Positions 1 to 17,482 of a DNA stretch of 21,249 nucleotides are shown piece after piece. Under the pieces are notes generated by a model. The model was not told the DNA's origin. It made no database searches and saw only the letters and a list, made by a program, of their open reading frames with translations. Positions within the stretch are counted from its first letter, which is position 1. Each line of letters opens with the position of its first letter. The stretch comes from a virus, in IMG/VR virus record IMGVR_UViG_3300028045_000124, positions 1 to 21,249 of that record. The stretch is one strand, 5' to 3'. The position numbers and the translations under genes were made by a program.

Positions 1-211
1 CAGTAGCAAGAGCTTGTCTACCCGTTGAGGTTCCATTTGCGCTTAATATTAAAGAGGAAACTCCACCAAAAGGGTTAGTGTGCAGTACACTTGAAAATGT
101 CCCCAATTGACCACCAGTAAACGGTGCCCAAACTAAACCCGTTAAATCAGTATTAAAAGTAATCCTTGGGTCTAACGCAGTATCGACAGTATAGCCAAGC
201 ATATTAGGATT
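1..211 (-). repeat. Carbohydrate-binding-like module, copy 3 in adhesin (cut by window edge)
   Basis: This starts at adhesin residue 811 with NPNMLGYTVDT and contains GTFSSVLHTNPFGGVSSLIL before the window ends. Only the first 70 residues are visible. The header lacks the SPGLD element of the other copies. Confidence 0.6.
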
Positions 212-2641
212 AGATACCACGCCCACTTTGTTCTTAGCATCGTAAACCTTTCCAACAAACCCAAAGGCATCCATAGAACTTGCTTCATTTACAATACTAT
301 TGTAGGTTCCTGAGACAAAGTTGGGATCAGTTCCATTAGCAGCTTGCAAGTAAGCAGCAGAGTTATCTAAGGAACTCACAAGAGCCCAATTAGATCCTCC
401 TGTACTAGAACCTTCTGGGTAACATCCAAGATAGTAGGCTTGATTACCTAAAGTACCTACACCTGATGTAGTTGAATGAGTATTCCCCAAATAATTATAA
501 GACGCAACATTACCTTTAAAAGGCCAAGCATAGTCTTTTACATAAGTTGTTGTCGGAGGTGTAGAATCTAGAACTGAATAAGCTGAGAAGGATGTTGGGG
601 TCCTAAGCTGAGTGTCCATACCAGAGTAATCTCTCCACGGAACCATATTCAGATTTTGTCCAAAGTCTATAGAACTAAAGATTCCTGAGAAGGTTTCTTC
701 TGTAGTATTTCTATCCTCTACTCTAGTACTCTCAGGGTTGGGAGGACTTGAGAGGTAGTTAGTGGGAGTATAAGAAGAAGTTAGTAAATTATCTTCTGCG
801 TAGTTTGGGAAACTTCCTGATACCTCCCTATACTTGGTAGGACCAATTTTAGTTCCAGTGGGCCACTGTTCAAATTGAGGAGAAGATGCCCAAAGCCTAG
901 CAAGAGATCTATCGGGACTGCCTACCCAGTCCCCCAGATACAACCAATTAGATAACTTGGTCCCCTCAGTTATAGAACCGTTTCCTAATCCTGTAGTGAT
1001 AACACTTACTCGATACCAGTCACCAGGAAGACTCTCTATATGCGCCCTATTAACAGAATTTTCCCCAGATTTTAGAGTGGGCTCTTTACCTCCTACACCA
1101 AGAAACTCAAAAGCCATGGTGTTTGATTGTGAAGCTGGGGCCTCACTATAATTATTCATCATGAATGAGGATACTGTGACTCCATAAGTAGGCTGTTTTA
1201 CATAAAAACTAAAAATAGAATCATACCCTGTTCTTAGCCATCTATCCCTAGTTAAATCAGGTACGGCTGTTATATTTGCTCTTGCCTGAATATAGGCAGG
1301 TGTAGTAGGTGACACATCGTTAGCACTAACTTCTATACTAGAGGGTCCGAAGGGGCTGGCTACTAAAATAGAAGAGAAAGATCCAATAGTGCCTGCGCCA
1401 AACCAATACTCACCATTCGTGTCTCCCCCTGGGAAATCCAAACCTGGACTATTACCTGGATCATCAGTATAGAAAAGTAAGTTAGGATTGGGAATAGGAT
1501 CATTTAATACTCTAACTGTTCCCTTGTCTAAAGGATGAATAGCTTCTGATCCATACTTTGCGTACCATTGATTAAGAACACTTCCAGAAAGATCCCAAGC
1601 ATTTGCTTGATAACCAGAATTATATTGGAGAGGTGTGGGCCATTTACCTACTTCTAATTGCCAACCAAAAGTATACACCCCACCAGAGGTTTCTCCAAAA
1701 TTAATCCCGTGATCATACCCAGCAGGATACATAATAGTAGAGTGGTAATCTGCTGCTGATGGAGCAGGAATAGCATTCCACAGTCTATACCACCCGTCTC
1801 CTACATCTTGCACTCCTCCATTCCCATTCCATTCATCTTCCGTGAACCCTGCTGCGACTGTTCTTTCTTCACCTTGGAAAGAAGTTACATTAATACTTGA
1901 GAGGGTGTGTGGTTCTATAGTAGGATCCCAATAAATATTAACTGAGTTCCTGCCTCTTCCCAAAGCAAACCCAGATTGGTATGAACCTTGGGCGGTTATA
2001 TTATTTTTAAATTCAGCTTTTGCTGCGGTTGAGTTAGCTCCTGGATCAACAAGATCTAAATTATAGGGATACCCAGGGTGAGGAGCTTTTACATAAACCG
2101 AAGTACAAAACCATTTATCTTGTAATGCGCTTGCTTGTAAAGGACCATAAGGTTGCCAATCCTGTGCAGCATTAAAATTAAGAGCATATTGGAAAGATAC
2201 ATTTGCATCTCCTGCGTTTATTTTTCTATCTCCCAAAAAGGTTACATGAGCAGTGGAGGATGGAACATCCTCAAATCCAGGTGGGTTGGTTTCGTCTGGG
2301 AGAGAAGATAGCAAATAATCTACCCCCTCCACTGTTCCTCCACTAATTCCTCGTCCCCCTGTACCTACTGACGAGAAGGTACTATCATACCACAAGTTTC
2401 TTCTATCAGCATACTTGTGAGCATTGTTCTGATAAGCAGATGCGTCCTTACCAAACGAGATAGCTTGAATGGTATAGTTAGAAGCATCTAGAATAGAAGA
2501 GGTAGCATGGTCTGCTATACCAGATAGGGAAGGGGAGACTGTCATAATGTCAGCCAACAATTCTCCTGCCCCATTCACAAGAAGGTTACTTTCCTTGTGG
2601 AGTAGCTTGTCTCCGTCCCAAATTTCTACTTCGCCTCTCAT
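1..2641 (-). CDS. Modular adhesin / tail-fibre-like protein, C-terminus beyond the window (partial)
   Basis: The frame from ATG at 2641 is open through 880 codons to the left edge; I checked every codon and found no stop. The start shares its A with the TAA of the upstream wedge gene (TAATG), and a GGAG lies about 12 nt upstream. Residues 1-50 form a compact cap beginning MRGEVEIWDGDKLLHKESNL and ending near GAGELLADIM. Three carbohydrate-binding-like modules follow at about 133-347, 385-612 and 811 onward, the last cut by the edge. They share YVK-x-P, WYR and QxE motifs. Residues 613-810 form a separate Gly/Ser/Tyr-rich region. Position after the wedge genes and the beta-rich repeats suggest a virion protein hung from the baseplate that binds a host-surface glycan. 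I do not recognise a named family for the whole chain. No signal peptide, membrane segment or enzymatic motif is visible. An alternative is a structural baseplate-decoration protein rather than a receptor binder. Confidence 0.7.
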   Translation of the reverse strand, partial: MRGEVEIWDGDKLLHKESNLLVNGAGELLADIMTVSPSLSGIADHATSSILDASNYTIQAISFGKDASAYQNNAHKYADRRNLWYDSTFSSVGTGGRGISGGTVEGVDYLLSSLPDETNPPGFEDVPSSTAHVTFLGDRKINAGDANVSFQYALNFNAAQDWQPYGPLQASALQDKWFCTSVYVKAPHPGYPYNLDLVDPGANSTAAKAEFKNNITAQGSYQSGFALGRGRNSVNIYWDPTIEPHTLSSINVTSFQGEERTVAAGFTEDEWNGNGGVQDVGDGWYRLWNAIPAPSAADYHSTIMYPAGYDHGINFGETSGGVYTFGWQLEVGKWPTPLQYNSGYQANAWDLSGSVLNQWYAKYGSEAIHPLDKGTVRVLNDPIPNPNLLFYTDDPGNSPGLDFPGGDTNGEYWFGAGTIGSFSSILVASPFGPSSIEVSANDVSPTTPAYIQARANITAVPDLTRDRWLRTGYDSIFSFYVKQPTYGVTVSSFMMNNYSEAPASQSNTMAFEFLGVGGKEPTLKSGENSVNRAHIESLPGDWYRVSVITTGLGNGSITEGTKLSNWLYLGDWVGSPDRSLARLWASSPQFEQWPTGTKIGPTKYREVSGSFPNYAEDNLLTSSYTPTNYLSSPPNPESTRVEDRNTTEETFSGIFSSIDFGQNLNMVPWRDYSGMDTQLRTPTSFSAYSVLDSTPPTTTYVKDYAWPFKGNVASYNYLGNTHSTTSGVGTLGNQAYYLGCYPEGSSTGGSNWALVSSLDNSAAYLQAANGTDPNFVSGTYNSIVNEASSMDAFGFVGKVYDAKNKVGVVSNPNMLGYTVDTALDPRITFNTDLTGLVWAPFTGGQLGTFSSVLHTNPFGGVSSLILSANGTSTGRQALAT
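806..1489 (-). repeat. Carbohydrate-binding-like module, copy 2 in adhesin
   Basis: This covers adhesin residues about 385-612. Landmarks are the header NPNLLFYTDDPGNSPGLDFP, the core GSFSSILVASPFG-PSSIEVSA (one Gly shorter than the other copies), FYVKQP, GDWYRV, PQFEQW and TKYREV. It is the adhesin copy most similar to the two wedge-protein copies. Confidence 0.7.
1601..2245 (-). repeat. Carbohydrate-binding-like module, divergent copy 1 in adhesin
   Basis: This covers adhesin residues about 133-347. It keeps the later landmarks (VYVKAP, DGWYRL, GWQLEV, TPLQYN) but lacks the NLLxYT header and the FSS-x5-PFGG core. It is therefore either a divergent copy or a related CBM-type domain of different origin. 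Confidence 0.55.
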
Positions 2642-5600
2642 TAGTTATCTAGCTCCACATTTGTAAAGTTATTGTAGTCAGCTTGAGTGTTGCCAGCATT
2701 ACCAGCACCCCAAGTTGGGCTTAGTCTATAGTTCAATCTACTACCCCCGCTTACTTCCATAGTACCTGATGTAATCATTGCATCTCTGGAAGCTAGGGAG
2801 GTAGCATACATTCCTGTACCTAGTCCTGCCAATCCATTATAGAACTTTAAAACATCTCTAAGTTGATCTTTCTCTAAGTAAAGTTTATCTTCTGTTACAA
2901 AAGGTCTAAGTGGGATGCCACTAGTAGCTACCCCATGCCCAGTTGCAATGCCTGTATTCTCTCGCTGGGTAACATCTTGAAGCTCGATGGAATCAATTAG
3001 GAGGTACTTGTTTGGATTATTGTTTGGGATAAAGAAGACTTCCACAATGTAATTCGTGTCATCCATGTTCACTTGTTCTGTAACCTTATAAACATCATTA
3101 TCCATAGGAATAATATCAAGATACTCAGAGTTGTTATGCTTAGTAAAGTTTCTGGTATCGAACTCTATTTCAAAGTTTCTAAAATACTCCTCCTTAAGAT
3201 TATTGAGAGTATTATTATTTATAACTTCATTTGAATCCGAAGTATTACCTAAGCAGAATTCCTCATCAATAAGTGCGGGTTGATAAATTGGGAAATCGTA
3301 TATGTGAGCTAGGGAATTCTTAACACTAGGAATGGATAAAGTACTTTCTTCTGCTACTTCCCACTTTCCGTTTGGAGTCCAGGACCATAGATATCCATTA
3401 GGGGTTATGGGGTCGGGCATGTTGCTTGATACTGCTTCGTAAGGAGTAGGGAGGGTTTGAGTTTCTCCTCCTCCAACAGGCCACTGCTCCACTTGAGGAG
3501 CAGTAACCCATAATGATTGTCCTGATACCTCATCATATTGGGAAATAGGGTAGAAATGATTGCCTCCTATGTAGAAATATGGTGAGTATTCATCCCCCTC
3601 AATAGTTTTTCCTCCAGAATCCACATAATCACCAAGACCACTTAATACCATTCCACATCTATACCAACCATCACCAACATCTTCTAAAATGGGAGTAACC
3701 CAATCATCTAATGAAGTAGACACTGTTGGCACCCCACTAGCTGCTGAATCATACCCGTTTGCATACTCAAAGTATATATTGTTAGACCATGATGGTGCTG
3801 TATGGTCATAAATATTCATAAAAAAAGATGAAACAGCTAGGTTTCTTGTAGGACGCTTCACATACCAAGTAAGTGCTGTTCTTTGGTTTGATCTAAATGT
3901 TCTAGATCTTGCCGAGCCCCCCACAGCAGTAACCTCAGAAACCCTTCTCGTCCCTAAGTAAGGCCAGTAAGTTATGGTAGTACCCAGCATTGCACTCAAC
4001 TCCATGCTAGATGCACCCCCAAAAGGGTCTACTTCTAAGATACTAGAGAAGGTAGCTAAGTTTGCTCCCGTCCAATAATCTCCCGCAGTATCTCCATTAG
4101 GTAAATCCATTCCAGGAGAGTTTGCGATGTCGGAAGTATAAGAAAATAAGTTTCTATTACCATCTAAGTACTTAGGTTTAGTATGAATCCATACGCCTAA
4201 CTTACCTCCTCCCAATATAGGAGAGTTCTCTTCCGCAACCAAAGACTTTACATTAAGTTTAAACTTGTGATCTTTAATAAAGTGGTTTGGTCTATCTCCA
4301 TATGAAGACAAATCAAAGCGAAGTCTGGGCAATCCTCCAACAGACTTACACTTAATAACGCTGTTGTTGATAAGAGCATTCTCCATTCCAGGGGTAGCCT
4401 TAGAAGAATCTAATTTAAACACACTAAACTGATTAGCGTTAGGTGCCCCAGAAGTTTGGACAAACTCAATACCACTTAAAATATTAGGGTTTCTAAACTC
4501 TGCGGCATAATCCCCGTAATCGGAATACTGTGCTGTGTTTACATTAAATGGGGAGTTATAAATACCAACTAGTGGGAGTACGGACTCGGCTGGGCCATAA
4601 GCAATGTAAGTTCCTGAAGCAATACCATCTCCATAAGACGCTACCGCACAGGTACTGAATACACCTGACCCCTCGTTATATGCGATAGGAACCACACTAG
4701 CAACGCTAGAGGCGATATAGTTTCCTTCTAAGGTAGTTGCAGCGGATCCAGCCAGATCAAAATCACAATTGTAAATACCCTTACCGAACACTTGAGCAAA
4801 GATATTGCCTCCAGTCTTAGCAACTTCAGTTAATCCTAACGGATGTTTGTCGAAGTACTTACAATAGTCTCTATGAGCTTTCTGCATTCCAGTACCGAAG
4901 CTGAAGTTCTCGTAGTCAGCAAAAGAGTTTAGAACAAAGCCACTAGCGATAGCTTCATTAGCAAAGCTTAGTCTAGTATTCTTCCAATAATCAACTACAT
5001 CATAAGCACTCGTATTTAGATTAATCTGCTCATTAGCGTAATCGTATGCCTTAGCTTGGAAAAGCTCATGCATAGTATTATATAATTCAGGAACTTGACC
5101 TCTATCCACATACCTAGCTGTGGCTGATTCCTCTTCTGGCATCTTGTTATTTGATCCGAGGGGAGTTAATCCTCTATAGGGATAAGTTGCGCTAGTATAA
5201 ACTCCAGAGAACTGACGGGAAGAATCAAGCTTCTCACACTCATGCCAAACGCCTGATGGATCAATAGGATCAACTATAGGATGGAACGCTGCTGCTGAAG
5301 CCACATATCCTAAGGTAAGTTCTCCCTTATCATGATTATTAGTGGGGGAGGCTCCTTCTACTGCCTGATATGGGCTAGGGAGGAGATCCCCTTTTGATAT
5401 AAGCTTCTGCTCTAGTTGAGGAGAAGATATATATAGGTGATAGGAAGCTCCTAAAGTAAGATAGAAATAGGGGAGTATTCTATCTCCTTCAACGGTATCC
5501 GAACCAGCACCTCTTCCCAAGCCGCTTGTAGTTATGCTACATCTGTACCAATCATTTCCAACGCTCTCCACATAACCTGTGGTGGCGGCGTGAGCCTCGG

Positions 5601-8562
5601 TTTGTACAACTGCTGCGTTACCATCCCACTCAAAAGTAACTTCATTAGATTCAAAATCAGCAGGACCATAATCGTAATTATTAATTTTAAAAGTAGTGGA
5701 TGGATTTGTTGTTGGCTTCTTAACATACCAACTTTGTATAGTATAATAAGCTGATTTGAACACGGGGTTTCTTTCGGCGGGGAGTCCAGTTTCAAATATA
5801 GCCCCACCACCAGTACCAAACTGTGACGCACTCAGATCTGTCGAAGAGGGTCCACCAAAAGGATTAGTTTCTAATGTAGATGAAAAAGTGCCTAATGCTC
5901 CTGGATTCCCCCTCCAATGTGTTCCTGTAATATCAATGGAACTTCCATTTGTAGGAGCCACACCCATATCTAGCCCAGGTGAGCCTCCAAGATCCTCCGT
6001 ATAAGAAAGCAAGTTTGGATTCTGAGCTTCTAGATCCCAATTCACAGGACCATTAAATCCAGTCCTATCGTAGTATCCCTCTTTGGGAAGAAGATACTTA
6101 AAGTTACGCCTTCTTAAAGCTCGTCTAGGAGCAAAGGTAGAAGAAGTAGTTGATTCAAGACCATCCGTAATTCTATCTACAGCGGCTCGTTTGAAAGTGT
6201 TCAGTCCCCCCCTACCATCAGAGTTTCCTGGACCTACAGCCCCCATAGCTGCTCCACTAATCTCAAAGTTTCCTAGGACAGAGGCTGAAGTATAGGAAGC
6301 TCTATTATCATCTTTATCAAAGCCTAAGTATTCCCACATAGCACCTGATGTAGAAAAATCATCTTCTGCACTAGCAGTTAGGTTTACTCTAGTGATAGCG
6401 TGAGCAGGAGAGAATTCTCTTGCTACTCTAGCTGCTTCATACAAGGCATACTTTCCATCACCTTCTAATGTAGTTTTAGAAAAATCAAAATCAGTATCTT
6501 TAAAGTTGATGAATAGGTGTGAGGATTTTCCATTCCACAAAGGGAGTAGGTTCTTCTCGTAGTCCGAAATACTAAGCATCACATCGTTAAAGTTCGATGG
6601 AGTCTGAACTGAACTAAAGAACATCAGCATCTCATTTAAAGCACCGAGATCTGATTCATCCGTGACCGCACTACTAAGAATATAATTACCAACCTCATCA
6701 GCAAAGGAATCCTTTACCCTAAAGCATTTCAACCTCTCTACCAGTAAGCTAACCATGTCAGCAGTAACACTAGAGTCTCTATAGTATTTTACTTCCTCAA
6801 ACGGAGGTAGTGGGTAGTTCTGCTTCTCTCTATAGTTAAATAAGAAATTAAGATCCCCCTCTGGCTTAAGATATATTGGCCTAGCTCCCGTAACTATGTT
6901 GGAGTGTTCTGCACCAGCCATATACACACCTGATCCTAATGCACCAAATCCTGTAGCAGCCTCGAAAGCATTCCTCTCCCCAAATAGTTTCGCATCCTGT
7001 TTGAATGCTTGATATCCATTACTATCATAAGAATGCATGTGGAATGGCTTCATTCCTGGCTCATTAATAATAGTATAACGCTTAGTCTTACATCCATTAA
7101 TATCAAGCTCCCACAACTCAGGTACAGGAAATCTATTTCCGTGGAATAAGAAATTATCAGGAAACGCTTTATACAGATCTAATAGGATATTATCAGTAAC
7201 GATTTTGATATTTTCTTCCAGGCTGCTAGTACTGTACAAAGATACTCCTGCTTGGGTAGCCAATCCAGGAGTCCAAGAGTTTAGGTTTTTAAACAGGGGT
7301 GATTCCGTACCTAACGCATACCAAACTAACTGGGGAAGGTACGACTCCCATAGCTCCTGCACCTTACCAGATACATCAAAAACAGAATCAACAATCAGTG
7401 CGTTGATCGCTGCTTGAATAGCTCCTATAGTTCCCGACTGCTTATAAAGATCTATTGCGAGCCGCAGTTGGTGTCTCCACTTTGAAGGAGAATTACCACG
7501 AAGTTTAAATCCGATAAGGTCAGCGATATATTGAATATGCTCATCTTTAACATTCTCAATATCATAAATTAAACTAATATTTTCAACTTGATCAGTGAGG
7601 TCAGCAAACTCATACCCTAAAAGATTAGTAAACTTTCTGTACGGTCCTTTAGATATATTGTTTGATAACAGTAGAGTAGCATCTATGTAGTTATCAAATG
7701 CGGCCTTAACAGTATAGTCTTGCTCATCAATATACAGAGGAGAGTATACTATGTCTATAAAAGTTTGAAGGGCTTCAAGTTTTTGGGTTCCACTAGTGTA
7801 GGTTGCTACGGTTCCTGCACTAGATTCAGTAATACCATCTGCTGTTCCAGAGATAAAATCGACAGGGATATACGCACCGAAAGAACATGTCTCATTGTTT
7901 CTCCACAAATACTCTGTTAGTCCTTTTATGCCATCAACTGTCTTTAGCGTATTCCCCAGATATAGAGAATTTAGAGAGCTAAGAACATAGCTAGATGGAG
8001 AATAATCCAGTCCTCCATCAGCAGAAGTATTCAAGAAATACATCCAACCTAAAGCATCCACTAAGTAATTATGAACACTGCTAGTATTTGAATCTCCCGT
8101 CAAAGAAGATAATGTTACTATATTAGCTTGGAGGGGATCAACCTGCGTAAGCGAAGGAGGTATAATCATCGGGAGCAATGTACCCGATAAGTATGTGGAG
8201 AACTCTGCGCTTGTGTCGTAGGCTGCTAAACTAGTACCTAAGGGAAGCATGATCTTACTTTCAAATAAGAATGGATTAATATTAGTTAGTTCATTCTGTT
8301 TTACAAAGTACTGTGCTATACCATTAATGTTTCCTAAGGCACTCGTCTGACTGTTAGCTACTCCAGACAAAGGAATAATATTAGAAATATTAGCAGCAAC
8401 ATTTATATGAGCATTGATTACCTGAGAGACAGGATTTAGCTCAACACCGCTTATGGATAAATCCTCTGCCTTATACACCTCAGGGGTGATAAGCTCCACT
8501 AGATCTACAAAGTTTGTCTTGTAGTATTTTCTAGGATTTGGTGTGTACTTGCTATCTGCCAT
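2641..8562 (-). CDS. Giant baseplate wedge protein, gp7 / tail-protein-I-like, with two inserted binding modules
   Basis: This 1973-residue protein starts at ATG 8562, overlapping the gp6 stop as TAATG. Residues about 305-420 resemble the tail protein I / T4 gp7 type of wedge region: a helical stretch with YIADLIGFKLRG at 345-356, then SGTIGAIQAAINAL at 376-389. Such proteins bridge gp6 to the peripheral baseplate. The rest is long and mosaic. A basic segment APRRALRRRNFKYLLPKEGY lies at 811-830. Two carbohydrate-binding-like modules lie at about 848-1068 and 1469-1710. A Gly/Ala-rich region spans about 1280-1380, and a domain seems split around module two (LGVWIHTK at 1455-1462, then LWSWTPNGKWEV at 1725-1736). 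T4 gp7 is about 1030 residues, so this protein is almost twice as long. Its place directly after gp6 supports the wedge role; the N-terminal 300 and C-terminal 230 residues are not recognised. It may replace several separate T4 peripheral wedge proteins. Confidence 0.72.
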   Translation of the reverse strand: MADSKYTPNPRKYYKTNFVDLVELITPEVYKAEDLSISGVELNPVSQVINAHINVAANISNIIPLSGVANSQTSALGNINGIAQYFVKQNELTNINPFLFESKIMLPLGTSLAAYDTSAEFSTYLSGTLLPMIIPPSLTQVDPLQANIVTLSSLTGDSNTSSVHNYLVDALGWMYFLNTSADGGLDYSPSSYVLSSLNSLYLGNTLKTVDGIKGLTEYLWRNNETCSFGAYIPVDFISGTADGITESSAGTVATYTSGTQKLEALQTFIDIVYSPLYIDEQDYTVKAAFDNYIDATLLLSNNISKGPYRKFTNLLGYEFADLTDQVENISLIYDIENVKDEHIQYIADLIGFKLRGNSPSKWRHQLRLAIDLYKQSGTIGAIQAAINALIVDSVFDVSGKVQELWESYLPQLVWYALGTESPLFKNLNSWTPGLATQAGVSLYSTSSLEENIKIVTDNILLDLYKAFPDNFLFHGNRFPVPELWELDINGCKTKRYTIINEPGMKPFHMHSYDSNGYQAFKQDAKLFGERNAFEAATGFGALGSGVYMAGAEHSNIVTGARPIYLKPEGDLNFLFNYREKQNYPLPPFEEVKYYRDSSVTADMVSLLVERLKCFRVKDSFADEVGNYILSSAVTDESDLGALNEMLMFFSSVQTPSNFNDVMLSISDYEKNLLPLWNGKSSHLFINFKDTDFDFSKTTLEGDGKYALYEAARVAREFSPAHAITRVNLTASAEDDFSTSGAMWEYLGFDKDDNRASYTSASVLGNFEISGAAMGAVGPGNSDGRGGLNTFKRAAVDRITDGLESTTSSTFAPRRALRRRNFKYLLPKEGYYDRTGFNGPVNWDLEAQNPNLLSYTEDLGGSPGLDMGVAPTNGSSIDITGTHWRGNPGALGTFSSTLETNPFGGPSSTDLSASQFGTGGGAIFETGLPAERNPVFKSAYYTIQSWYVKKPTTNPSTTFKINNYDYGPADFESNEVTFEWDGNAAVVQTEAHAATTGYVESVGNDWYRCSITTSGLGRGAGSDTVEGDRILPYFYLTLGASYHLYISSPQLEQKLISKGDLLPSPYQAVEGASPTNNHDKGELTLGYVASAAAFHPIVDPIDPSGVWHECEKLDSSRQFSGVYTSATYPYRGLTPLGSNNKMPEEESATARYVDRGQVPELYNTMHELFQAKAYDYANEQINLNTSAYDVVDYWKNTRLSFANEAIASGFVLNSFADYENFSFGTGMQKAHRDYCKYFDKHPLGLTEVAKTGGNIFAQVFGKGIYNCDFDLAGSAATTLEGNYIASSVASVVPIAYNEGSGVFSTCAVASYGDGIASGTYIAYGPAESVLPLVGIYNSPFNVNTAQYSDYGDYAAEFRNPNILSGIEFVQTSGAPNANQFSVFKLDSSKATPGMENALINNSVIKCKSVGGLPRLRFDLSSYGDRPNHFIKDHKFKLNVKSLVAEENSPILGGGKLGVWIHTKPKYLDGNRNLFSYTSDIANSPGMDLPNGDTAGDYWTGANLATFSSILEVDPFGGASSMELSAMLGTTITYWPYLGTRRVSEVTAVGGSARSRTFRSNQRTALTWYVKRPTRNLAVSSFFMNIYDHTAPSWSNNIYFEYANGYDSAASGVPTVSTSLDDWVTPILEDVGDGWYRCGMVLSGLGDYVDSGGKTIEGDEYSPYFYIGGNHFYPISQYDEVSGQSLWVTAPQVEQWPVGGGETQTLPTPYEAVSSNMPDPITPNGYLWSWTPNGKWEVAEESTLSIPSVKNSLAHIYDFPIYQPALIDEEFCLGNTSDSNEVINNNTLNNLKEEYFRNFEIEFDTRNFTKHNNSEYLDIIPMDNDVYKVTEQVNMDDTNYIVEVFFIPNNNPNKYLLIDSIELQDVTQRENTGIATGHGVATSGIPLRPFVTEDKLYLEKDQLRDVLKFYNGLAGLGTGMYATSLASRDAMITSGTMEVSGGSRLNYRLSPTWGAGNAGNTQADYNNFTNVELDN
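3433..4158 (-). repeat. Carbohydrate-binding-like module, copy B in wedge protein
   Basis: This covers residues about 1469-1710 of the wedge protein. Landmarks are the header NLFSYTSDIANSPGMDLP, ATFSSILEVDPFGGASSMEL (1503-1522), WYVKRP (1566-1571), DGWYRC (1631-1636), PQVEQW and TPYEAV. The flanks LGVWIHTK and LWSWTPNGKWEV read like two halves of one interrupted domain. The pattern resembles jelly-roll CBM-type domains common in phage tail proteins. Confidence 0.7.
5359..6021 (-). repeat. Carbohydrate-binding-like module, copy A in wedge protein
   Basis: This covers residues about 848-1068 of the wedge protein. Landmarks are the header NLLSYTEDLGGSPGLDMG, GTFSSTLETNPFGGPSSTDL (891-910), WYVKKP (945-950), NDWYRC (1003-1008), PQLEQ and SPYQAV. 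It sits between a basic KEGYYDRTGF segment and an ELTLGYVASAAAFHPIVD segment that look like parts of the surrounding structural region. Confidence 0.7.
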
Positions 8563-10157
8563 TAGTCTAATAACGCTACATTAATTGTTAAATTATTCAA
8601 TTGAACAATCTCATTAAAATCAATTGTAATATTTTTTTCAATGTTATCTATTGTAGAAAATATAACCTCATCCACTTCAAAGATTTGTCTGTTTATTTCA
8701 GCTACATTAAAATCCTCTCCAAATTCCCGATTATCTACATTCATATAAGCCATAACCTTGTCTCTAACTCTTGCTTTGATTTGGTCTTGATTTGCCTCTT
8801 CCTCTCTATCAATTTTAATTGTTGTAATTAAATCTAAGGTTCGAATAAGACCGTCCACAATAACCACATCGTCCGTTGCCATGCGCTTTTTATTTATAGC
8901 AGTTAGTAATTGGGTTTTAAAATTTGTAGTAGCTCGTTGCAATTGAAGATCAGAAGCTTTTTCCAAAGTATAAATATCAATCACATTAGCTGAGGAGTAC
9001 GCTTGTCTAGTAGCAGCAACAGCTTTACCAACCGTACCGAAAGTACTAATGAATGTATTAGCAAATACTGAATAGTCTTCTATGGTTACTAGACGATCTT
9101 GCCTTCTAAAGTTTAATGGAGCATATCGTTTAGCATGTTCTAATGTTTCTGCATTTGAACCACCAGTACCCTTTGAAATATTTGTTATATCTACGCTCTG
9201 CGGTATCCCATTAACAAGGGCAACTAAAGTATTATTAATAGTATTCTTTCCTATATTCCCTCGGGTTCCTCCACCAACTCTATAAAAGACATAATAATTA
9301 GAGGTATCGTTTGGGGAAACTCCAACACTACCGTCTCCAAAAACGACTGTAGCCTTATAATCATCATCATAAATAACTTCAAAAATCTTGTCAGAAGATC
9401 CAGAAGCGAAGAACACATTAGGCACTTCAACAAAGGCTCCGTTATTGGTAGCGTTAGGCCCATCAGTATATACCTGAACGCTTCCATCTACAACAGGGCC
9501 TTGTGTAAGCTTAATAGTCTTAACGCCTTCAGTCGCTGCGAAGCTACCTGAATCCTTTACAAGTGTTCCCTCCTGCATAACTACATTTTCAAATACCGTT
9601 ACTGGAGATCCTTGGCCCTCTTCATCATTAAGAATAATTGACCCAGTAGAATTGACTGTATCAACAAGCCCATTAACTACTTTATATAATGTATAATTTA
9701 GCACTCCTCCATCCTCGGGGGAGATGGTTTCTATAATTCTATTAGTAGCTGCAATTTCGATGGTTCCTGTTCCAGCGGTTACTGCTAAAGGAGAGGTAAT
9801 CTTCACATCGGTAGCCGCAGAAAGAGGACCCCTCATACGAATTCCAATTAACTGTAATAGCTTTTTAACACTGGGTCGTTGTGTAGCTGTGGCTAAGAAA
9901 TTCTCATTAGCAAGCATATCAGCTTTCATAGACATAACAGATCCCATGTACGCCACCAACTCTAGGAACATCATCCCCAAATCAGATTCTACAAAGTACT
10001 TGTAGTCTGTCGGATATACAGTCTTAGCATACTCAATCAGAGAATTCCTAAGAGTAAGAAAATCAGTAGCAGCAAAGTTAATAAGAGACGGTCTCTTTAC
10101 AACGGGAATGTTTGCTAACTTCATATAGTCCGATGTAATAGTTCCAGAAAAGTTCAT
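8562..10157 (-). CDS. 6: Baseplate wedge protein gp6 (baseplate J-like family)
   Basis: This 531-residue protein matches the T4 gp6 / baseplate J pattern. An N-terminal helical part contains DLGMMFLELVAYMGSVMSMK (59-78). The hallmark central motifs are VVFGDGSVGVSP (271-282) and YRVGGGTRGNIG (292-303). A post-core segment, NFRRQDRLVTIEDY, lies at 349-362. The C-terminus is alpha/beta and acidic. gp6 forms the inner ring of the baseplate and joins neighbouring wedges; its dimers contact gp25, gp53 and gp7. T4 gp6 is about 660 residues, so this version is shorter but has the whole conserved core. The start ATG overlaps the gp25 stop (ATGA), with GAGGT about 10 nt upstream, and its stop overlaps the start of the giant wedge gene (TAATG). 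Coupled translation of gp25, gp6 and the gp7-like protein fits their joint assembly into the wedge core. Confidence 0.92.
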   Translation of the reverse strand: MNFSGTITSDYMKLANIPVVKRPSLINFAATDFLTLRNSLIEYAKTVYPTDYKYFVESDLGMMFLELVAYMGSVMSMKADMLANENFLATATQRPSVKKLLQLIGIRMRGPLSAATDVKITSPLAVTAGTGTIEIAATNRIIETISPEDGGVLNYTLYKVVNGLVDTVNSTGSIILNDEEGQGSPVTVFENVVMQEGTLVKDSGSFAATEGVKTIKLTQGPVVDGSVQVYTDGPNATNNGAFVEVPNVFFASGSSDKIFEVIYDDDYKATVVFGDGSVGVSPNDTSNYYVFYRVGGGTRGNIGKNTINNTLVALVNGIPQSVDITNISKGTGGSNAETLEHAKRYAPLNFRRQDRLVTIEDYSVFANTFISTFGTVGKAVAATRQAYSSANVIDIYTLEKASDLQLQRATTNFKTQLLTAINKKRMATDDVVIVDGLIRTLDLITTIKIDREEEANQDQIKARVRDKVMAYMNVDNREFGEDFNVAEINRQIFEVDEVIFSTIDNIEKNITIDFNEIVQLNNLTINVALLD

Positions 10158-10618
10158 GATATGTTTACCTCAACATCAAATATCTCTAAGTCAGCACTAT
10201 CTATTTGTAAAGATAAAACCACTTTAAGGGAGTTCCCTCCTGCTGGGCCAGCCTCACCCATAGGAAACACAGCTAATTTTGCAATGTTAGCTCCTACAAT
10301 GTAATTCTTAAAGGAATATTGAATCTCTTGCTTAATTGATTCAAAAGTAGATTCAGTTAATGGTTGAAAAAGAAATTTTCTTAGGTTACATCCAAAATTG
10401 GGAAGCATAACCCTCTCACCCCTCTCTGTTAAAAGAAGCTGCTTGACCGCTTCTCTTATCATAACAATACCAGATCGCTTTGAAAAGAATCCTCCTCCAA
10501 GAGCAGATCCCAAAGGGAAGGACAGTCCGTAGACCTCTTGCTTCTGTGAAGTTATCCCCTGTTTCGTATACCTAGGGGGTACACTTCCAAAAACCGTAAC
10601 TGTTTGATTAGATGCCAT
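10154..10618 (-). CDS. 25: Baseplate wedge protein gp25 (GPW/gp25 family)
   Basis: This 154-residue protein carries the GPW/gp25 signature: a helix IREAVKQLLLTERGERVMLP (54-73) followed by NFGCNLRKFLFQP (74-86). The TERGER-x-M-x-P-x-FG pattern is typical of the family. An amphipathic helix (about 90-105) and two C-terminal beta strands follow. gp25 sits in the inner wedge core and contacts the first sheath layer, where it is thought to seed sheath assembly. Family members are usually 100-150 residues, so the length is slightly large because of an N-terminal extension of about 30 residues. ATG at 10618 overlaps the stop of the LamG-protein gene (TAATG). There is no good Shine-Dalgarno in front, so translation probably depends on coupling to the upstream gene. 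The family assignment is clear. Confidence 0.94.
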   Translation of the reverse strand: MASNQTVTVFGSVPPRYTKQGITSQKQEVYGLSFPLGSALGGGFFSKRSGIVMIREAVKQLLLTERGERVMLPNFGCNLRKFLFQPLTESTFESIKQEIQYSFKNYIVGANIAKLAVFPMGEAGPAGGNSLKVVLSLQIDSADLEIFDVEVNIS

Positions 10619-13320
10619 TAGATCTTAATATTCTTGAAGAAGCCTTCTTGGGCTTTATAGTTCTTTAATACTTCTGAATTATCTAGGGCTCTAGCGTAAA
10701 ATTTCAAACTTCCTAGGTGCCCACGAAGACCGCTGGTTATTCCCCCACGATCTCCTCCTAAGAAGTTTCCGTGACTATACATGCCGTCAGTATATCCTCC
10801 ACCCACTATCCAAGGAGTATAGAATGTATTTAGTAGGGGTCCTTGTTTAAGCACTGTAGGACCGTCCACCGTAGTTGAGGAGTACTGGAAGCTATTATTT
10901 TTCTTGAAGGTGGGTAGGCTTGGTGGGAGTCCTATATCAACACCGAAAACATCTGATATTGCTGAGGTGGCAATTAATGATCCATCAGCGAATAGCTTAA
11001 TAGTATTAGTTCTAGGGTCACAAGATATATCAATAAGGACAAACTGTGAGGATACATTGCCAAAATCAGTAGCTGAAAGATCCACTTTCATTTTGTAAAA
11101 AGTTGGATAATCCTGACAATCATCATTATTAATCCAGGATGCTGAGGAAGCGTCTCTAGCTTGGGTAGGAGCTATGAAGAAACTCAAGGAGGATGCTGGG
11201 TCATTATCGTAATTATTATTACTGTATCCTGCGGAAGCCTGGGTGATTCTTCTATCTCTAGTAAATCCACAAACCATCCCCCTGACAAAGCTCTCACCTC
11301 TTTTGTTCTCCAAGTAATCCAAGTCTCGCTCGCTCCCCGTATGATCCACAGCTAACACTCCTGAGGCAGAACCAACATTCTCACTAGCTAGAATAACCTT
11401 AGTTAGTGAGGATACTGTAGAACTAAGCCAACCAAGATCCCCATCCATAATATTTGGAACATGAGCCCAGCACTCCATGGTGAATCCACTTGGCGAATAG
11501 GTTAGGTCCTGGAACTCTTTTGTGTCGGGAAGCTTGGCGTATGATCCAAGAGCGGATGCTCCAGCAGGATCTGAGGATTTGTTCTTAACAATACCCTCAA
11601 AATATGGAATACTTAAACCTGATAAGAATAGTGTTCTTTTGGATGCTCCCACTAATTGAGCATTATTATACATATTATCTGTGGCACAATTTGTCACAGG
11701 AAAATCTATTGAGGAAGGTAATTCTAAAGTAGTCTCAAGAAAATTATATATGGCAAACAAATCTTTACTTACAATCTGATCAGTCAAGGATAACACCGTC
11801 CCTGAATTTGTAGATGATGGAGAATAAATAATAGATCCTTTGCCTACGGTAGGAATATTTAAATGATCAATAGATATGGATGGGGGTGATGCGTTGATCC
11901 TTGAGAACTTAGCTTCAATAGGTAAAACAATACCTACAACATCTGCTTGCTTGAAAATCAAGGAATTCTGTTTTTCAAAATCTACTGATAAATTAAAATC
12001 AGCTAAGTAGGAGAAATCGTTAATAGGTACTTCTCCTGGGGCGAACATAGGACCCTCTAAGTCCCCATAAATTTGTGGTGCTTTTACGGCAACCTCAATC
12101 TGTTTCTTTCTTCTATTTATCTTATTATTGTGATTAGCAATTTCTGTAATAATTAATTGCCTCTGATTTTGGATTACTGATATAGCTTCTCCACCATCAA
12201 TAAATACCTGCAAATCAGCAGATAAATCATATGTTAGCTTATTTCTTTGTTGCTTAAGAACTGAAAGGAAGTGATCCTCATCATAGTATGCTTGAAGCCC
12301 TCTACTATCATCAATTATATTTGGATCAAAAATATTGTCCGTAAATTTATTCAGAGACTTGATAGAGACTGCTTGGCCCTTACCCCCTAAGTTAGGATCA
12401 TAATCATATTTCCACTGATCTCCGATAGGGACTATTCCCGAAATAGCTAGAAACACGGGGTTTAGTCCCCCCGACTGGGAATCGTAATAGAGTCCATCGG
12501 AGGTTAATACATATTGACCATCAGAGGATTTTGGAGGCCCATAAGTAAGTCTAAATATTTCTTGATCTTCTTGTCCAACTTCTGGATCGGCCAAGGGACT
12601 TCTGCTAAAAGTGGTTTTATCTAAGAAGGGGTCTAACTCTCTTGAGTCTAATAATTTAGGTTCCAGGGAGGGGTCTGCTGCTCTAGCCTTAAGAAGATCA
12701 TTAATTTCCTTGATCTTATCATCGCATTTAGACATAAAATCTCCTGCCGTTTCCAGTCGCGCCTTATCACCTGCGTACATGGAATCGAAGAGGGCATCTG
12801 CTTCTGCGGTGGGAAGCGTAGCTTTTTGATCAGCGGAATTTCCAGACTGGAAGGATTGAAGGTCGTTCCACTTCTGAAGACAGTCAGAGATAGCGTCAAT
12901 TTGGTTTGCTATGTCTGTGTAGTTTTGGTAGATTTGTGCCCCAAAGGAAGCTGCGTATTGAAACGCTCCCAACAGGCCAGCTAAGTTATCCTTTGTTTGG
13001 TTATCATCATTGTCGATTCCTTGCCATGCAGTATCCGACATAAACTTAAAAACGCCTGTATCCGTATCAAACTCAATAATTCCAGTATTAAGCATTAGCT
13101 TTTTGAATACTTCTTTTGTTACCTCATTAGCTTTAGCTTTTCCTTGTGAGATTTGAGATTGCATATTACTCAAAACAGAACTCGGGAGAAGGTTCAAAGC
13201 CCCCGCTGCTAAATTCAGCATACAACTGGGCATACCAAAAGACATACCTAAAGCCTGAAGGGCTCCAGTGCCTGTATTACCTTGTACCTTTAAGAAGGTT
13301 TCTAAATCAAATGATGCCAT
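10618..13320 (-). CDS. Large baseplate-associated structural protein with C-terminal LamG-like domain
   Basis: This 900-residue protein lies between the spike and gp25 genes, which strongly suggests a virion component. The N-terminus (about 15-60) is rich in Gly, Ala, Leu and Met with mild hydrophobicity. Residues about 110-215 and 345-415 look helical and possibly coiled coil, with many Gln, Asn, Lys and Glu. Residues about 595-890 read as a concanavalin/LamG-like jelly roll. Its visible signs are a first strand FTMECWAHVP (613-622), a strand/loop TIKLFADGSLIATSAI (773-788) and the closing pair GHLGSLKFYARALDNSEVLK (867-886), which is the usual LamG ending. Such domains bind sugars or act as structural folds in phage tails. 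GAGG lies about 6 nt before ATG 13320. No T4 counterpart is recognised for the N-terminal 590 residues. A role as a hub or wedge linker exposing a glycan-binding domain is inference; the LamG call is moderately firm. Confidence 0.68.
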   Translation of the reverse strand: MASFDLETFLKVQGNTGTGALQALGMSFGMPSCMLNLAAGALNLLPSSVLSNMQSQISQGKAKANEVTKEVFKKLMLNTGIIEFDTDTGVFKFMSDTAWQGIDNDDNQTKDNLAGLLGAFQYAASFGAQIYQNYTDIANQIDAISDCLQKWNDLQSFQSGNSADQKATLPTAEADALFDSMYAGDKARLETAGDFMSKCDDKIKEINDLLKARAADPSLEPKLLDSRELDPFLDKTTFSRSPLADPEVGQEDQEIFRLTYGPPKSSDGQYVLTSDGLYYDSQSGGLNPVFLAISGIVPIGDQWKYDYDPNLGGKGQAVSIKSLNKFTDNIFDPNIIDDSRGLQAYYDEDHFLSVLKQQRNKLTYDLSADLQVFIDGGEAISVIQNQRQLIITEIANHNNKINRRKKQIEVAVKAPQIYGDLEGPMFAPGEVPINDFSYLADFNLSVDFEKQNSLIFKQADVVGIVLPIEAKFSRINASPPSISIDHLNIPTVGKGSIIYSPSSTNSGTVLSLTDQIVSKDLFAIYNFLETTLELPSSIDFPVTNCATDNMYNNAQLVGASKRTLFLSGLSIPYFEGIVKNKSSDPAGASALGSYAKLPDTKEFQDLTYSPSGFTMECWAHVPNIMDGDLGWLSSTVSSLTKVILASENVGSASGVLAVDHTGSERDLDYLENKRGESFVRGMVCGFTRDRRITQASAGYSNNNYDNDPASSLSFFIAPTQARDASSASWINNDDCQDYPTFYKMKVDLSATDFGNVSSQFVLIDISCDPRTNTIKLFADGSLIATSAISDVFGVDIGLPPSLPTFKKNNSFQYSSTTVDGPTVLKQGPLLNTFYTPWIVGGGYTDGMYSHGNFLGGDRGGITSGLRGHLGSLKFYARALDNSEVLKNYKAQEGFFKNIKI

Positions 13321-13329
13321 AATTGCCTC

Positions 13330-14421
13330 TTAGTATGTAGTGATACCAGTGTTACCATAGGTGCTTTGTGTTCCCTCAACGCTTGGTGGGCTCGCATTAG
13401 CTCCGTTAGCTAATTGTATCGTAGCAGCATCAATGTTAGCGTTACCTGCCACTGCGACCTCCAATGTTGGGCAAGTAATGTTAGTTGCACCGCCATCACT
13501 CTGCATCCTTATCTGTCCCCCTGCTTTCATTTCTATATTTCCACCCGCATCTAAACGGATATCTCCTTTAGTTTTAATAACAATAGCTCCTCCATCCCCG
13601 TTAGTCTCAATTTGGATAACCTGATTGCTTCCATTTTCATTTAAGCATTCAATAAAGATTCGTCCTTGTTCTGCTTGGGTGAATACATTTATATCTCTCC
13701 ACTTACTTTGAATATTTACATTACCGCAAGGGATTCCAGGACCCCACTCAATCCCACTAGCCATGTTAAGTAGCTGAAGCTCTCTCCCTGCTGATCCGAC
13801 TAATACATCAGTCTGGGACTCTGTGTTGATATATTTTTGGGGGCCAACAGTCTCAATTTGGACAGACTGAGCAGCAATGCTACTATTCTGAGGATCATCA
13901 GCTATGGTAATTTTACTTCCATTCCCAGAGGTTAGTGTGATAGCATCAATAGCAGGACTATCACTTAAAGTAATTCTCTTATTTACATTTGATCTGATCT
14001 CTGTTTTATTGTTAATTAACTTAGGGTTGTACTCCTCAGTTACTGAGATACCGCCCCCTCCTGGCCCTGTGAGTTGTACAGCCATAGGAACGCCTCTAGA
14101 CCTGTATAGGACTGAGTTAGCTCTCTCTAGAGGGTAAACAGTAGCGTCAGCAATTGACGCTCCCTCGACCTGGAAGGGCTCTGGTTCGAAGGTGGACCCT
14201 AAGTAATACCAATCATCCCCCTGCCCAGGCTTACATACTAGGATCTGTACTCCAACCATTGGAATGCCAATGAAAGCCCCCTCCCCATTAGAAGCGAAAG
14301 GACTAACATACTTAACTCGTTTTTCCTCGTTCCCTAACTCAACAATTCTAGCTAAAAAGGATCCACTTCGACTTGCATCAGCCGTATCCCTAACTTCCGC
14401 TAATGAAATTATCTGACTCAT
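13330..14421 (-). CDS. Baseplate central spike protein (gp5/gpV/VgrG-like OB fold plus beta-helix)
   Basis: This 363-residue protein has the architecture of a membrane-piercing spike. Residues about 18-85 form an OB fold: SGSFLARIVELG (19-30), GAFIGIPMVGVQILVCKPGQ (48-67), then DDWYYLGSTF. A repetitive beta-prism or beta-helix follows, with many short polar strands at about 140-345. It includes the regular stretch IVIKTKGDIRLDAGGNIEMK (280-299), typical of VgrG/gp5 spikes. The chain ends in a Gly/Asn/Ser/Thr tail. It presumably trimerises at the end of the hub. Unlike T4 gp5 it has no lysozyme domain between the OB fold and the helix, and I see no HxH metal-binding tip motif as in P2 gpV. GAGGAGG lies 7 nt before the start, and the start overlaps the hub stop (ATGA). 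A 9-bp gap separates it from the LamG-protein gene. Confidence 0.87.
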   Translation of the reverse strand: MSQIISLAEVRDTADASRSGSFLARIVELGNEEKRVKYVSPFASNGEGAFIGIPMVGVQILVCKPGQGDDWYYLGSTFEPEPFQVEGASIADATVYPLERANSVLYRSRGVPMAVQLTGPGGGGISVTEEYNPKLINNKTEIRSNVNKRITLSDSPAIDAITLTSGNGSKITIADDPQNSSIAAQSVQIETVGPQKYINTESQTDVLVGSAGRELQLLNMASGIEWGPGIPCGNVNIQSKWRDINVFTQAEQGRIFIECLNENGSNQVIQIETNGDGGAIVIKTKGDIRLDAGGNIEMKAGGQIRMQSDGGATNITCPTLEVAVAGNANIDAATIQLANGANASPPSVEGTQSTYGNTGITTY

Positions 14422-17177
14422 TCGGAAGCCTCCTCAAGATCATACTTAGGAGCATTTTTTACGAGGCTAAACTCGGAGGTGGCAGTACTAGTATTTATAG
14501 TATGTTTCCACCCCATTATCTTATAAAGGCCACTAAAGAAGGAATTTAACAAAGTCCTTTGTGGATCAATAGATTGTTTTATAGAAGCATCTTGAGCAAA
14601 CACAATGCATGGCGAAGACATATTGTGAATATTTGATACATGAAAAAGAGGTAGGGTTTTTATACTCATTTGGAGGGCTTGTCTATATACATTTTCTGCA
14701 AAGTCTGTCAAAACGGACTGGGGATTTCCAGGTAATAATTGATCAACCTCAATTAATCCTTTGAGATCATCATCATTACCACCTTCAGCTTTGTCAAGTA
14801 AAGCACCGATTGCTTGAGCAGCCGATAAGGGGTCAGTTACTTCAAGGTCTTTCATAAGTTCTATGGACACTTTCCCCTTCAAATCTTTTAATATCTCTAA
14901 TCTGTTATCTGAATCTAAAGAAAAGTTCTTTTGTCTTAAGTATGCAGCAGCAGCACCTATAGTCCTAATGGGTAAACTTCCCGTTCCGATAGGCAAAAGA
15001 CCTTCTGTAACACCAGAGGCTTTCCTAGTAACCATCTTATTAAATCCCATCTTTAGTTGTGCGAAATAGACTCCTCCAAATTTAAAGTTAATATCTAAAA
15101 CATTAGGGTTTGTTGTGTTGTATCTAAAAATAGGAATTCCTTGCTTCTTTATATAATCTTTTTTAGTATTAGTAAATTGTTTATCCGAATACCCAAAGGT
15201 ATCGGGAATATCGGAAATATCTCCAAAGGAGCCTTCTCCTGTAATTGGGGGAAATGCTATCGCCCTAACCGCTTTATTATAGCTCTTACTAGTTAGCATT
15301 AGTGCGTCTAATGGGTGGAGGGGAATAGCTTTTACTGCACCTATTATACCTGCTTTATAAATTTCACCTTGTTCGATAGCTGCGGCTTCTAAAGAGGAGG
15401 CAGCAAGCGTGGATGTATATTTTGGGCTGGGGGCTTCCCAAGGATTACTTACAGGTAGATTCTCTAAATCACTTTCATACTTACCTTGATTCTCTTTAGC
15501 CAGAGAGGCAGCATCCTGATACTCTTGAATAGTTTTAAACTTATTATCTAGATCAACCTTGCCATAAAGATACTTCTGAATCAATGCTTGGTCCCCAACA
15601 ATAATGGCTTCTTGGTCCTCACTAAAATCTTTATATCCACCAAAGAGAGGAAATTTATGTGTAGGAAGAGATTTAATACTACCTCCCCAAAAATCTAGAA
15701 GTTTTATATCTGTCTCATTATAAATACCTAAATTTATTTGATACTCTTCTTTGGCGTTAAGATTAATCTTCTTAATAATGGTATTAACAACATCCATATG
15801 ATTTGGAATACCCTTATCACTAGCCTTTTGGGCTATGGCATAGAAGTTATGATGATCAAAGTATTTCTCAAATCTCTCATTTGCGGTTTTACCTACTTCG
15901 TAGTTTATCCTACTTTCTATACTACTATATGGAATAGCTTTTAGTTCGTACCCCGTAGCATCTTTTAGCGTCTGGTGAAGCTCTAATCCGAAAGAGCTTA
16001 AGAAGCTAGATATGAACTGTTCTTTAAATCCTAACTCTCCTAAATTAGGATTATACTGATAGTCAGTAATTTGTTTAATAAAGGAACCAAACAAAGGTAT
16101 CTTTGAAGCACTGGATATAATACTTAGGGCTTGGCTTGCTCTAGAATTTTTAATACTATCATCAAGGTGCTGTCTACAAGTAACATTAATATTTGGCAAG
16201 AGGACAATTACATTCCTATTTCCTGTTGCTTTTTGAACATAACTTCGCAAGGTATCAACGATCATAGAATGAAAATCAAAATCACCTAACTCAGAGGCTG
16301 CATTAGCTAACCCTATCTTCTTTAGCGCATCAGTAGTATCCTTACTATTTGAATAAGCTGTATCAACTAACCCAGTAATACCAGAAACTGCTAACTCACT
16401 TAAACCTAGTAAGGCTATAGGATCATATGCCTTACCTCCTTCTTTTAAGTTAGTAAATTCAATAGGTTTGGATATTCCTGAGTACCGCATGGTTAATCCC
16501 GCCAAATCTAAGTCTACTTTCTCATTAGATGCACCTCGTCTATGGCTTAATTGAACTGCATTTGCAGTGGGGGTTAGAGTCAAAGTAATTTTTCTGGATC
16601 CCTTCACAGTAACTTCAGCACCAGTCATTACGGTTCTGTGTGGACCAGACCAAAGATCAAGATTACTTCCTGATCCATAAGCTACATAAAATTCTCTTTC
16701 TCCGTAATGCTCCGACATCTTTTCTTTAAGGTCTGAAAAAAACTTCTTATCATATAGCACTTGGCTTTTCTCAACATCTGCATTGGCTTTTGCTGAAATT
16801 TCATCCTCTTTATTTTGATCCTCAGTCTCTTCTTTGGATATAGCTAGTTCTTCATAAGTAAATTTATTATAAGCCTTTTTATTTTTACTAAACCCAGCGA
16901 TGTTTCTAGTTATGTTATCAGTCATAAACCTTCTCTCAAACTCACCCTTAGGATCAATAAAAGTTAAAACCATCTTCATGCCCTTACCAAAACCCATAGT
17001 ATGTTCAAAAGATACGAAGTTAGGGTTTGATTCATTATCAAAAAGAAGAACTTCATCAAACTCCCCCTTTTTGGTTAGTCCCTGAATTAAACTCTTATAG
17101 GTTGCTCCTTCGGTAAAGAGCCTATCCATAACCCCCCTATCAAATCCAATAATTACATTTGCTGTAGGAACTCTCAT
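14418..17177 (-). CDS. Large baseplate hub protein (gp27-like role)
   Basis: This 919-residue protein sits between gp53 and the spike, where the hub is expected. The N-terminal part (about 1-205) contains beta-rich stretches, including MKMVLTFIDPKGEFERRF (67-84), FYVAYGSGSNLDLWSGPHRT (163-182) and KGSRKITLTLTP (192-203), separated by a charged, helical Glu/Lys insert at about 110-155. The C-terminal end (about 880-910) reads GLYKIMGWKHTINTSTATSEF. A Gly-Tyr-x-x-x-x-x-x-H-x-I/L pattern before the last strands is common at the end of gp27/gpD-type hub domains. T4 gp27 is about 390 residues, so this protein is more than twice that size; the middle (about 210-660) is unrecognised and largely helical. 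It would connect the tail tube to the spike. The start overlaps the gp53 stop (TAATG) without a clear ribosome-binding site. Hub identity rests mainly on context and end motifs. Confidence 0.6.
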   Translation of the reverse strand: MRVPTANVIIGFDRGVMDRLFTEGATYKSLIQGLTKKGEFDEVLLFDNESNPNFVSFEHTMGFGKGMKMVLTFIDPKGEFERRFMTDNITRNIAGFSKNKKAYNKFTYEELAISKEETEDQNKEDEISAKANADVEKSQVLYDKKFFSDLKEKMSEHYGEREFYVAYGSGSNLDLWSGPHRTVMTGAEVTVKGSRKITLTLTPTANAVQLSHRRGASNEKVDLDLAGLTMRYSGISKPIEFTNLKEGGKAYDPIALLGLSELAVSGITGLVDTAYSNSKDTTDALKKIGLANAASELGDFDFHSMIVDTLRSYVQKATGNRNVIVLLPNINVTCRQHLDDSIKNSRASQALSIISSASKIPLFGSFIKQITDYQYNPNLGELGFKEQFISSFLSSFGLELHQTLKDATGYELKAIPYSSIESRINYEVGKTANERFEKYFDHHNFYAIAQKASDKGIPNHMDVVNTIIKKINLNAKEEYQINLGIYNETDIKLLDFWGGSIKSLPTHKFPLFGGYKDFSEDQEAIIVGDQALIQKYLYGKVDLDNKFKTIQEYQDAASLAKENQGKYESDLENLPVSNPWEAPSPKYTSTLAASSLEAAAIEQGEIYKAGIIGAVKAIPLHPLDALMLTSKSYNKAVRAIAFPPITGEGSFGDISDIPDTFGYSDKQFTNTKKDYIKKQGIPIFRYNTTNPNVLDINFKFGGVYFAQLKMGFNKMVTRKASGVTEGLLPIGTGSLPIRTIGAAAAYLRQKNFSLDSDNRLEILKDLKGKVSIELMKDLEVTDPLSAAQAIGALLDKAEGGNDDDLKGLIEVDQLLPGNPQSVLTDFAENVYRQALQMSIKTLPLFHVSNIHNMSSPCIVFAQDASIKQSIDPQRTLLNSFFSGLYKIMGWKHTINTSTATSEFSLVKNAPKYDLEEASE

Positions 17178-17482
17178 TACAGTTTAGGGATTATAATTTT
17201 TTGATTTTCCGTGAACCCCTCTCCAGGGTCTGAGATACCATTCACTAACATTAGAAGCCACCAATTTTTAGGACTACCATAAAAAATATTGGAAATTAAA
17301 TCAGGACGATGCTCGTACCCAGCAGGAATATAACCAATCTCGTACTCATAAGCATCCCCTAAATTTACTAAAAGGTTATCAAACTTAGGAGTATTTAAGA
17401 TGGTTGTCGTAGTAACTCCTCTATGCAATACTTGTTTGTAGTCTAGGCTATAAGGACCTCTATCTTTTCCTAAAGATGCCAT
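17177..17482 (-). CDS. 53: Baseplate wedge protein gp53 (LysM-like)
   Basis: This 101-residue protein shows the gp53 pattern. GYEHRPDLISNIFYGSPKNW (55-74) is followed by WLLMLVNGISDPGEGF (75-90) and a terminal KIIIPKL. This RPDLIxxxFYGxPxxWW core, followed by VNxIxDP and IxIP, is a LysM-like fold used by gp53 and related baseplate proteins to clamp neighbouring wedges. T4 gp53 is about 196 residues, so this is a short version, close in length to the compact LysM-type baseplate proteins of other myophages. AGGAG lies about 11 nt before ATG 17482, and both ends overlap neighbouring genes by TAATG. The family assignment is clear from the core motif; the exact equivalence to T4 gp53 rather than another LysM-like wedge protein is slightly less certain. 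Confidence 0.86.
   Translation of the reverse strand: MASLGKDRGPYSLDYKQVLHRGVTTTTILNTPKFDNLLVNLGDAYEYEIGYIPAGYEHRPDLISNIFYGSPKNWWLLMLVNGISDPGEGFTENQKIIIPKL

Follow-up and report, generated by a model that had tools for sequence, protein, structure and literature searches.

The IMG/VR virus contig IMGVR_UViG_3300028045_000124, whose 21,249 bases make up the window analysed here and give all coordinates, carries the same protein module in five places within two adjacent genes of a contractile-tail operon. These modules are probably exchangeable beta-sandwich binding cassettes, which sit in slots at fixed positions within two conserved baseplate proteins of a T4-like contractile-tailed lineage, called marine because of the types of collections and relatives that turned up and not from sample records. 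The two proteins are B, a baseplate wedge protein encoded by open reading frame (ORF) 2641-8562, and A, encoded by the gene that follows (ORF 2-2641); relatives are labelled with L-numbers.

The five segments are all encoded on the minus strand, two in B and three in A, and the ordered motifs from which the first-pass annotation had read a five-fold repeat are present where it placed them. The intact copies, B846-1079, B1467-1721 and A383-618, align with each other from end to end at identities of 40-45% (z 37-51), with local alignment scores of 295-354 against a maximum of 71 for shuffled sequences, and the copy that is incomplete at the contig end (A809-880) aligns with the others at 46-51% identity (z 16-17), these four being clear homologues. 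Pairwise alignment does not detect the fifth, A80-349 (z -1.6 to 3), yet profile-profile comparison recovers it: the hhalign score is 49.3 (E 1.7e-6), and the match spans some 64-70 columns that surround GNxWYR...QLE. Controls scored no higher than 22.7 when columns were shuffled 100 times, and at most 16 with reversed or backbone decoys. This fifth copy has the motifs NL.., YVK, GDGWYR, WQLE and PT in that order and is, on the evidence of its profile, a true distant relative that only profile comparison can see, its earlier limits of 1601-2245 being corrected to 1595-2404. The cassette is about 230-260 amino acids (aa) long, starting with N-P-N-L and ending with P-x-P/A-Y-x-x-V, and the family is, as had been proposed, common to the wedge protein and its neighbour. 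In Pfam and PHROG scans of A and B the cassettes gave only weak matches to PHROG 5939, 'tail protein'. A BLAST alignment extending beyond the cassette ends prompted the idea that the second gene is a copy of the neighbourhood of wedge site 1; this was rejected, as wedge-backbone profiles found no match in that gene.

Judged from their relatives, the modules are optional cassettes at fixed sites, two in the wedge protein (sites 1 and 2) and three in the product of the next gene (S0, SA and SB). Relatives of B are encoded by 66 IMG/VR contigs, a profile search found 351, of which the best 80 were taken, and most relatives match B of the window end to end, cassettes excepted. In 101 distinct wedge sequences site 1 was measurable in 82 and site 2, counted by profile, in 72. 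The gap at site 1 is bimodal, with 15-28 aa in 71 of the 82 and 235-264 aa in the other 11, and no intermediates. Site 2 is not empty in 13 of the 72, twelve having 224-259 aa there and one (L041) 39 aa, while empty sites hold -1 to 13 aa; site SB of the second gene holds 10-25 aa when empty and 248-270 aa when full. An alignment of relatives gives the exact junctions as FNGPVxxDxxxxExSM/GELTLGYV for site 1 and GGGKLGVWIHTxP/GxxWSWTPxGKWE for site 2, the stroke marking where the cassette enters. The short linkers beside the cassettes follow the slot and the cassette ends follow the cassette, with the reading frame and the exact junctions always kept.

The second gene mostly encodes 346-397 aa in relatives, some of which (L035, for example) have S0 without SA and SB, and reaches 1145-1173 aa when all three sites are filled. 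A is better called a conserved baseplate-operon gene than an 'adhesin', the label given to it in the first-pass annotation, its scaffold with vacant sites measuring just about 350-400 aa. Wedge relatives without cassettes are about 1450-1500 aa long.

Other insertions are seen among these relatives. A different insert, ~260 aa long, is present in L020 at a third wedge position (5500-6300 of that contig, wedge residues ~970-1235), and its end, ...SWYELRF..IWGTQIVKGEF, recalls the cassette fold, although the insert was missed by the cassette-profile scans that were run. The L126 wedge, at 1723 aa, is over-long for a cassette-free wedge despite an empty site 1. A separate lineage (L049, L051-L053, L064 and L065) carries an insert of its own, ~130 aa long, at a further position, wedge residues ~902-1037, and in L018 (14377-16404) and L029 (8853-10937) an additional gene of 675-694 aa lies between the wedge gene and the second gene.

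Comparison between contigs shows that cassettes are replaced within slots and moved between sites, genes and lineages. The wedges of L004, L005 and L008 are nearly identical, yet their site-1 cassettes are very different (~35% aa identity). Between L005 and L008 the wedge DNA is 98-100% identical to the left of the slot, 49-52% within the site-1 cassette and 95-100% to the right, and the same pattern is found between L004 and L005 at both sites 1 and 2, with the left flank at 89-99.8% DNA identity. Movement between slots is shown by the site-2 cassette of L034 and the site-1 cassette of L073, which share 91% of their DNA and an exact match of 151 nt, while the wedge backbones around them are 69% identical over ~840 codons and 50% at third positions. 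The independent contig L075 carries the window's site-1 cassette type at site 2 and has an empty site 1. Between genes, the site-1 cassette of L005 is 77% identical in DNA to the SB cassette in the second gene of L003, the two viruses' own site-1 cassettes being only 58% identical. In a cassette tree sites 1, 2 and SB are intermixed and a single site-1 clade is rejected; SA alone keeps together, its four cassettes forming one group. A second subtype of site-2 cassette, ~20-25% identical to other cassettes, was also observed in L004, L011 and L073, the L004 and L073 copies having 89% DNA identity in wedges that are 76% identical.

The cassettes also change faster than the proteins that hold them, in keeping with the diversifying change suggested earlier. 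The ratio of amino-acid-changing to silent substitution (dN/dS, Nei-Gojobori) is 0.23-0.68 for cassettes against 0.08-0.14 for backbones, a difference of ~3-7-fold at lower silent divergence of the cassettes, with the backbone dS close to saturation in the more distant pairs. This higher ratio is a sign of relaxed or locally diversifying selection and does not prove positive selection. No contrast in cassette variability was found between strands and loops (entropy 1.82 and 1.74).

The earlier suggestion of an old duplication, here taken as one within the gene with later divergence and with secondary losses in other viruses, is now highly improbable. Copies within the genome are ~40% identical, which is compatible with age, and the grouping of the four SA cassettes means that some slots keep their own lineage; however, cassettes in different slots of different viruses are closer to each other than to neighbouring copies, or than those in the same slot of a near-identical wedge. 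For sites 1, 2 and SB duplication is already contradicted, unless the contigs concerned are chimeric. The slots are empty in most relatives and the cassettes are replaced and moved; the copies do not stem from old duplication in this genome. The chance that the swaps are themselves chimeras of assembly is smaller still. All the relatives are metagenomic, metagenome assembly can misjoin repeated similar segments such as these intragenic repeats, and L034 is known from one contig. Against this, the swapped cassettes, at ~35% aa identity, are too different to act as assembly repeats, every site-1 version is found in two separate contigs (L004/L010, L005/L006 and L008/L012), L075 independently has the site-1 type at site 2, and frame and junctions are intact throughout.

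As modelled, the cassette carries a beta-sandwich fold of the carbohydrate-binding module (CBM) type. A model built with 20 sequences is all-beta (pLDDT 79, pTM 0.83), and with Foldseek it matches CBM22, 11, 30, 28, 27, 16 and 61 as well as legume lectins with a probability of ~1.0 and a template-modelling (TM) score to the target of 0.4-0.6; many tail proteins of uncultured phages match it also. Among solved proteins the best match of the cassette profile is the head spike fibre Rcc01080 of the gene transfer agent RcGTA (E 7e-5), and the profile of the fifth copy has its best PDB match, although a weak one (E 0.028), in the RcGTA spike fibre chain too. For the fifth copy the structure prediction is poor (pLDDT 47), and because of this the folds it matches, 9b45 and 8env once more, are taken as supportive only. 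The CBM-type likeness noted at first stands for the fold of the intact cassette and not for its sequence. Binding of surface glycans is most likely what the cassettes do, sugar binding being what we infer. A group of phage proteins (L086-L110), many of which start with MSxxxDKASLVxIPSG, weakly match the WYR half of the cassette, often twice each; the domain family occurs widely among other phages.

Several results weigh against a binding role. Of 17 cassettes searched against Pfam-A none matched a CBM family, CBM_4_9 included, the RcGTA match is limited to the C-terminal 60% of the cassette, and overall dN/dS stays below 1. In addition, the top Foldseek matches are baseplate chains of ~500 aa from the Pseudomonas phages E217 and Pa193 (E 2.4e-6 and 8.5e-7, TM to the query 0.6), assigned by their length to gp45 and gp46, and in these phages gp45 and gp46 are the baseplate triplex subunit that anchors the tail fibre (PMC10329688, PMC11042391). 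As the top fold match is a fibre-anchoring wedge subunit without known sugar binding, the cassettes may be structural, stiffening the wedge or docking fibres or other adhesins without touching the host. The E217 match makes this the main rival, and it is unlikely: cassettes are absent from most relatives, they are exchanged whole and evolve faster than the scaffold, and the same family is found in a capsule-binding protein, the RcGTA spike fibre. The E217 and Pa193 proteins are also integral wedge subunits, unlike the proposed cassettes.

Parallels to binding cassettes are known from other systems. RcGTA head fibres attach the particles to the capsule (PMC7296036), and tagged Rcc01080 binds fully to wild-type cells and at ~4% to a capsule-less mutant (PMC10218006). 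Rcc01080 (PDB 6TB9) is like the cassettes in being beta-rich with a homologous YVK...WYR...QLE part, and it binds capsular polysaccharide; it differs in being a free spike on the capsid vertices, rather than an insert in a baseplate loop, and in not occupying multiple slots. Closer in its position is the wedge protein Gp119 of the Bacillus phage Vp4, which bears CBMs that the Deep-Blue homologue Gp177 does not have, and a Gp119 fusion to green fluorescent protein decorates host cells while Gp177 does not (PMC11406892). As in the window, this is a myophage wedge with domains of carbohydrate-binding type that are missing in relatives, binding in the window being predicted. Gp119, however, has CBM16-like and xylanase-CBM-like folds in a single phage pair, with no family of cassettes across several slots or genes and no movement from slot to slot reported. 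In siphophages, lactococcal ones among them, the evolved Dit proteins are tail-tip proteins with carbohydrate-binding inserts that aid adsorption (PMC10688798). Like the window's cassettes these inserts sit in a conserved tail protein and vary in presence between close relatives, but they belong to a non-contractile tail, to Dit and to Gram-positive hosts, whereas the window scaffold is part of a gp25-gp6 baseplate operon and its weak match is to Tail_P2_I rather than to Dit. Continuing exchange of domains in phage receptor-binding and baseplate proteins is a general phenomenon (PMC10684548), for which that survey spans unrelated proteins, while here a single cassette family is exchanged among fixed slots in two orthologous genes that lie side by side. 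In the open PMC literature no report was found of one cassette family in fixed slots of two neighbouring baseplate genes and traded between them. Carbohydrate-binding domains in tail proteins are thus already known; what is new is the sharing of one cassette family among multiple slots.

In contractile phages host recognition is usually assigned to tail fibres and spikes. Here exchangeable parts of binding type sit in the wedge and the adjoining gene and, as they can be exchanged in fixed slots, the virus probably changes its adhesion target by swapping parts of its baseplate. Cassettes would be mounted on the scaffold by the short linkers that belong to the slot, several copies per baseplate would face the host and bind glycans of the cell surface (capsule, lipopolysaccharide or exopolysaccharide), and swaps would change or broaden attachment ahead of sheath contraction. 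Replacement within a slot most likely proceeds through homologous recombination between the near-identical flanking sequences, and movement from slot to slot would require rarer events at short homology. There is about an even chance that the whole is a combinatorial adhesion array, in which the slots of two baseplate proteins, as many as five, draw on one shared pool of glycan-binding cassettes, slot-specific linkers and conserved ends serve as a standard interface, and host range evolves by exchange of cassettes between slots, genes and viruses with the tail fibres untouched. Empty, full and swapped forms are all natural, and they offer a direct route to matching cassettes with the surfaces they bind and to learning how a baseplate is re-equipped without loss of function. 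The capsule-binding spike domain of a gene transfer agent is also hereby linked to the baseplates of a common, uncultured virus lineage.

The minus strand of the window encodes a contractile-tail operon in the order gp53-like protein, DUF2345-type spike, gp25, gp6, B and A (Table 1). B is named a wedge protein because of its Tail_P2_I match and because gp25 and gp6 precede it; the match (PF09684, residues 320-392) is weak in the window, at 16.1 bits against a cut-off of 20.6, which is exceeded by one B relative with 21.7 bits. A 900-aa baseplate-operon protein is also encoded at 10618-13320 on the minus strand, the C-terminal part of which (GFTMECWAHVPN...DGSLIATS...HLGSLKFYARALDNSEV) has a LamG or concanavalin-like look, for which Pfam support was not found.

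Table 1. Cassettes, slot edges and tail genes located in the window.
Feature	Position	Strand	Remarks
Wedge site 1 cassette (B846-1079)	5326..6027	-	NPNLLSYT header to PSPYQAV
Wedge site 2 cassette (B1467-1721)	3400..4164	-	
Cassette SA of second gene (A383-618)	788..1495	-	
Cassette SB of second gene (A809-880)	2..217	-	Incomplete at contig end
Fifth, distant copy, site S0 of second gene (A80-349)	1595..2404	-	Extent from relatives
Left edge of wedge site 1, backbone	6028..6087	-	LPKEGYYDRTGFNGPVNWDLE
Right edge of wedge site 1, backbone	5280..5325	-	GELTLGYV..., joins FNGPV..SM in empty sites
Left edge of wedge site 2	4165..4215	-	GGGKLGVWIHTKPKY
Right edge of wedge site 2	3360..3399	-	GYLWSWTPNGKWE
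gp53-like wedge protein	17177..17482	-	Pfam PF11246, 20.9 bits against a cut-off of 21
DUF2345-type spike	13330-14421	-	Weak match
gp25-like baseplate wedge protein	10154..10618	-	Pfam PF04965, above cut-off
gp6-like baseplate wedge subunit	8562..10157	-	PHROG 219, E 5e-37
Baseplate wedge gene B, Tail_P2_I-like	2641..8562	-	1973 aa, two filled cassette sites; after gp25 and gp6
Second baseplate-operon gene A	2..2641	-	MRGEVEIW..., 880 aa, 3' part missing at contig end

Named phages gave no match to the window wedge in a tblastn search of 50,697 phage records, and the site-1 cassette likewise has no relative among them. The sole wedge relative from a genome collection, L111 (NZTP01000017.1, 37%), is a 30-kb contig binned with an Altibacter (Flavobacteriaceae) genome, and the terminase of a relative is closest to those of Flavobacterium phages, at 32%; together the bin and the terminase are a hint, and no more, of Flavobacteriia as hosts.

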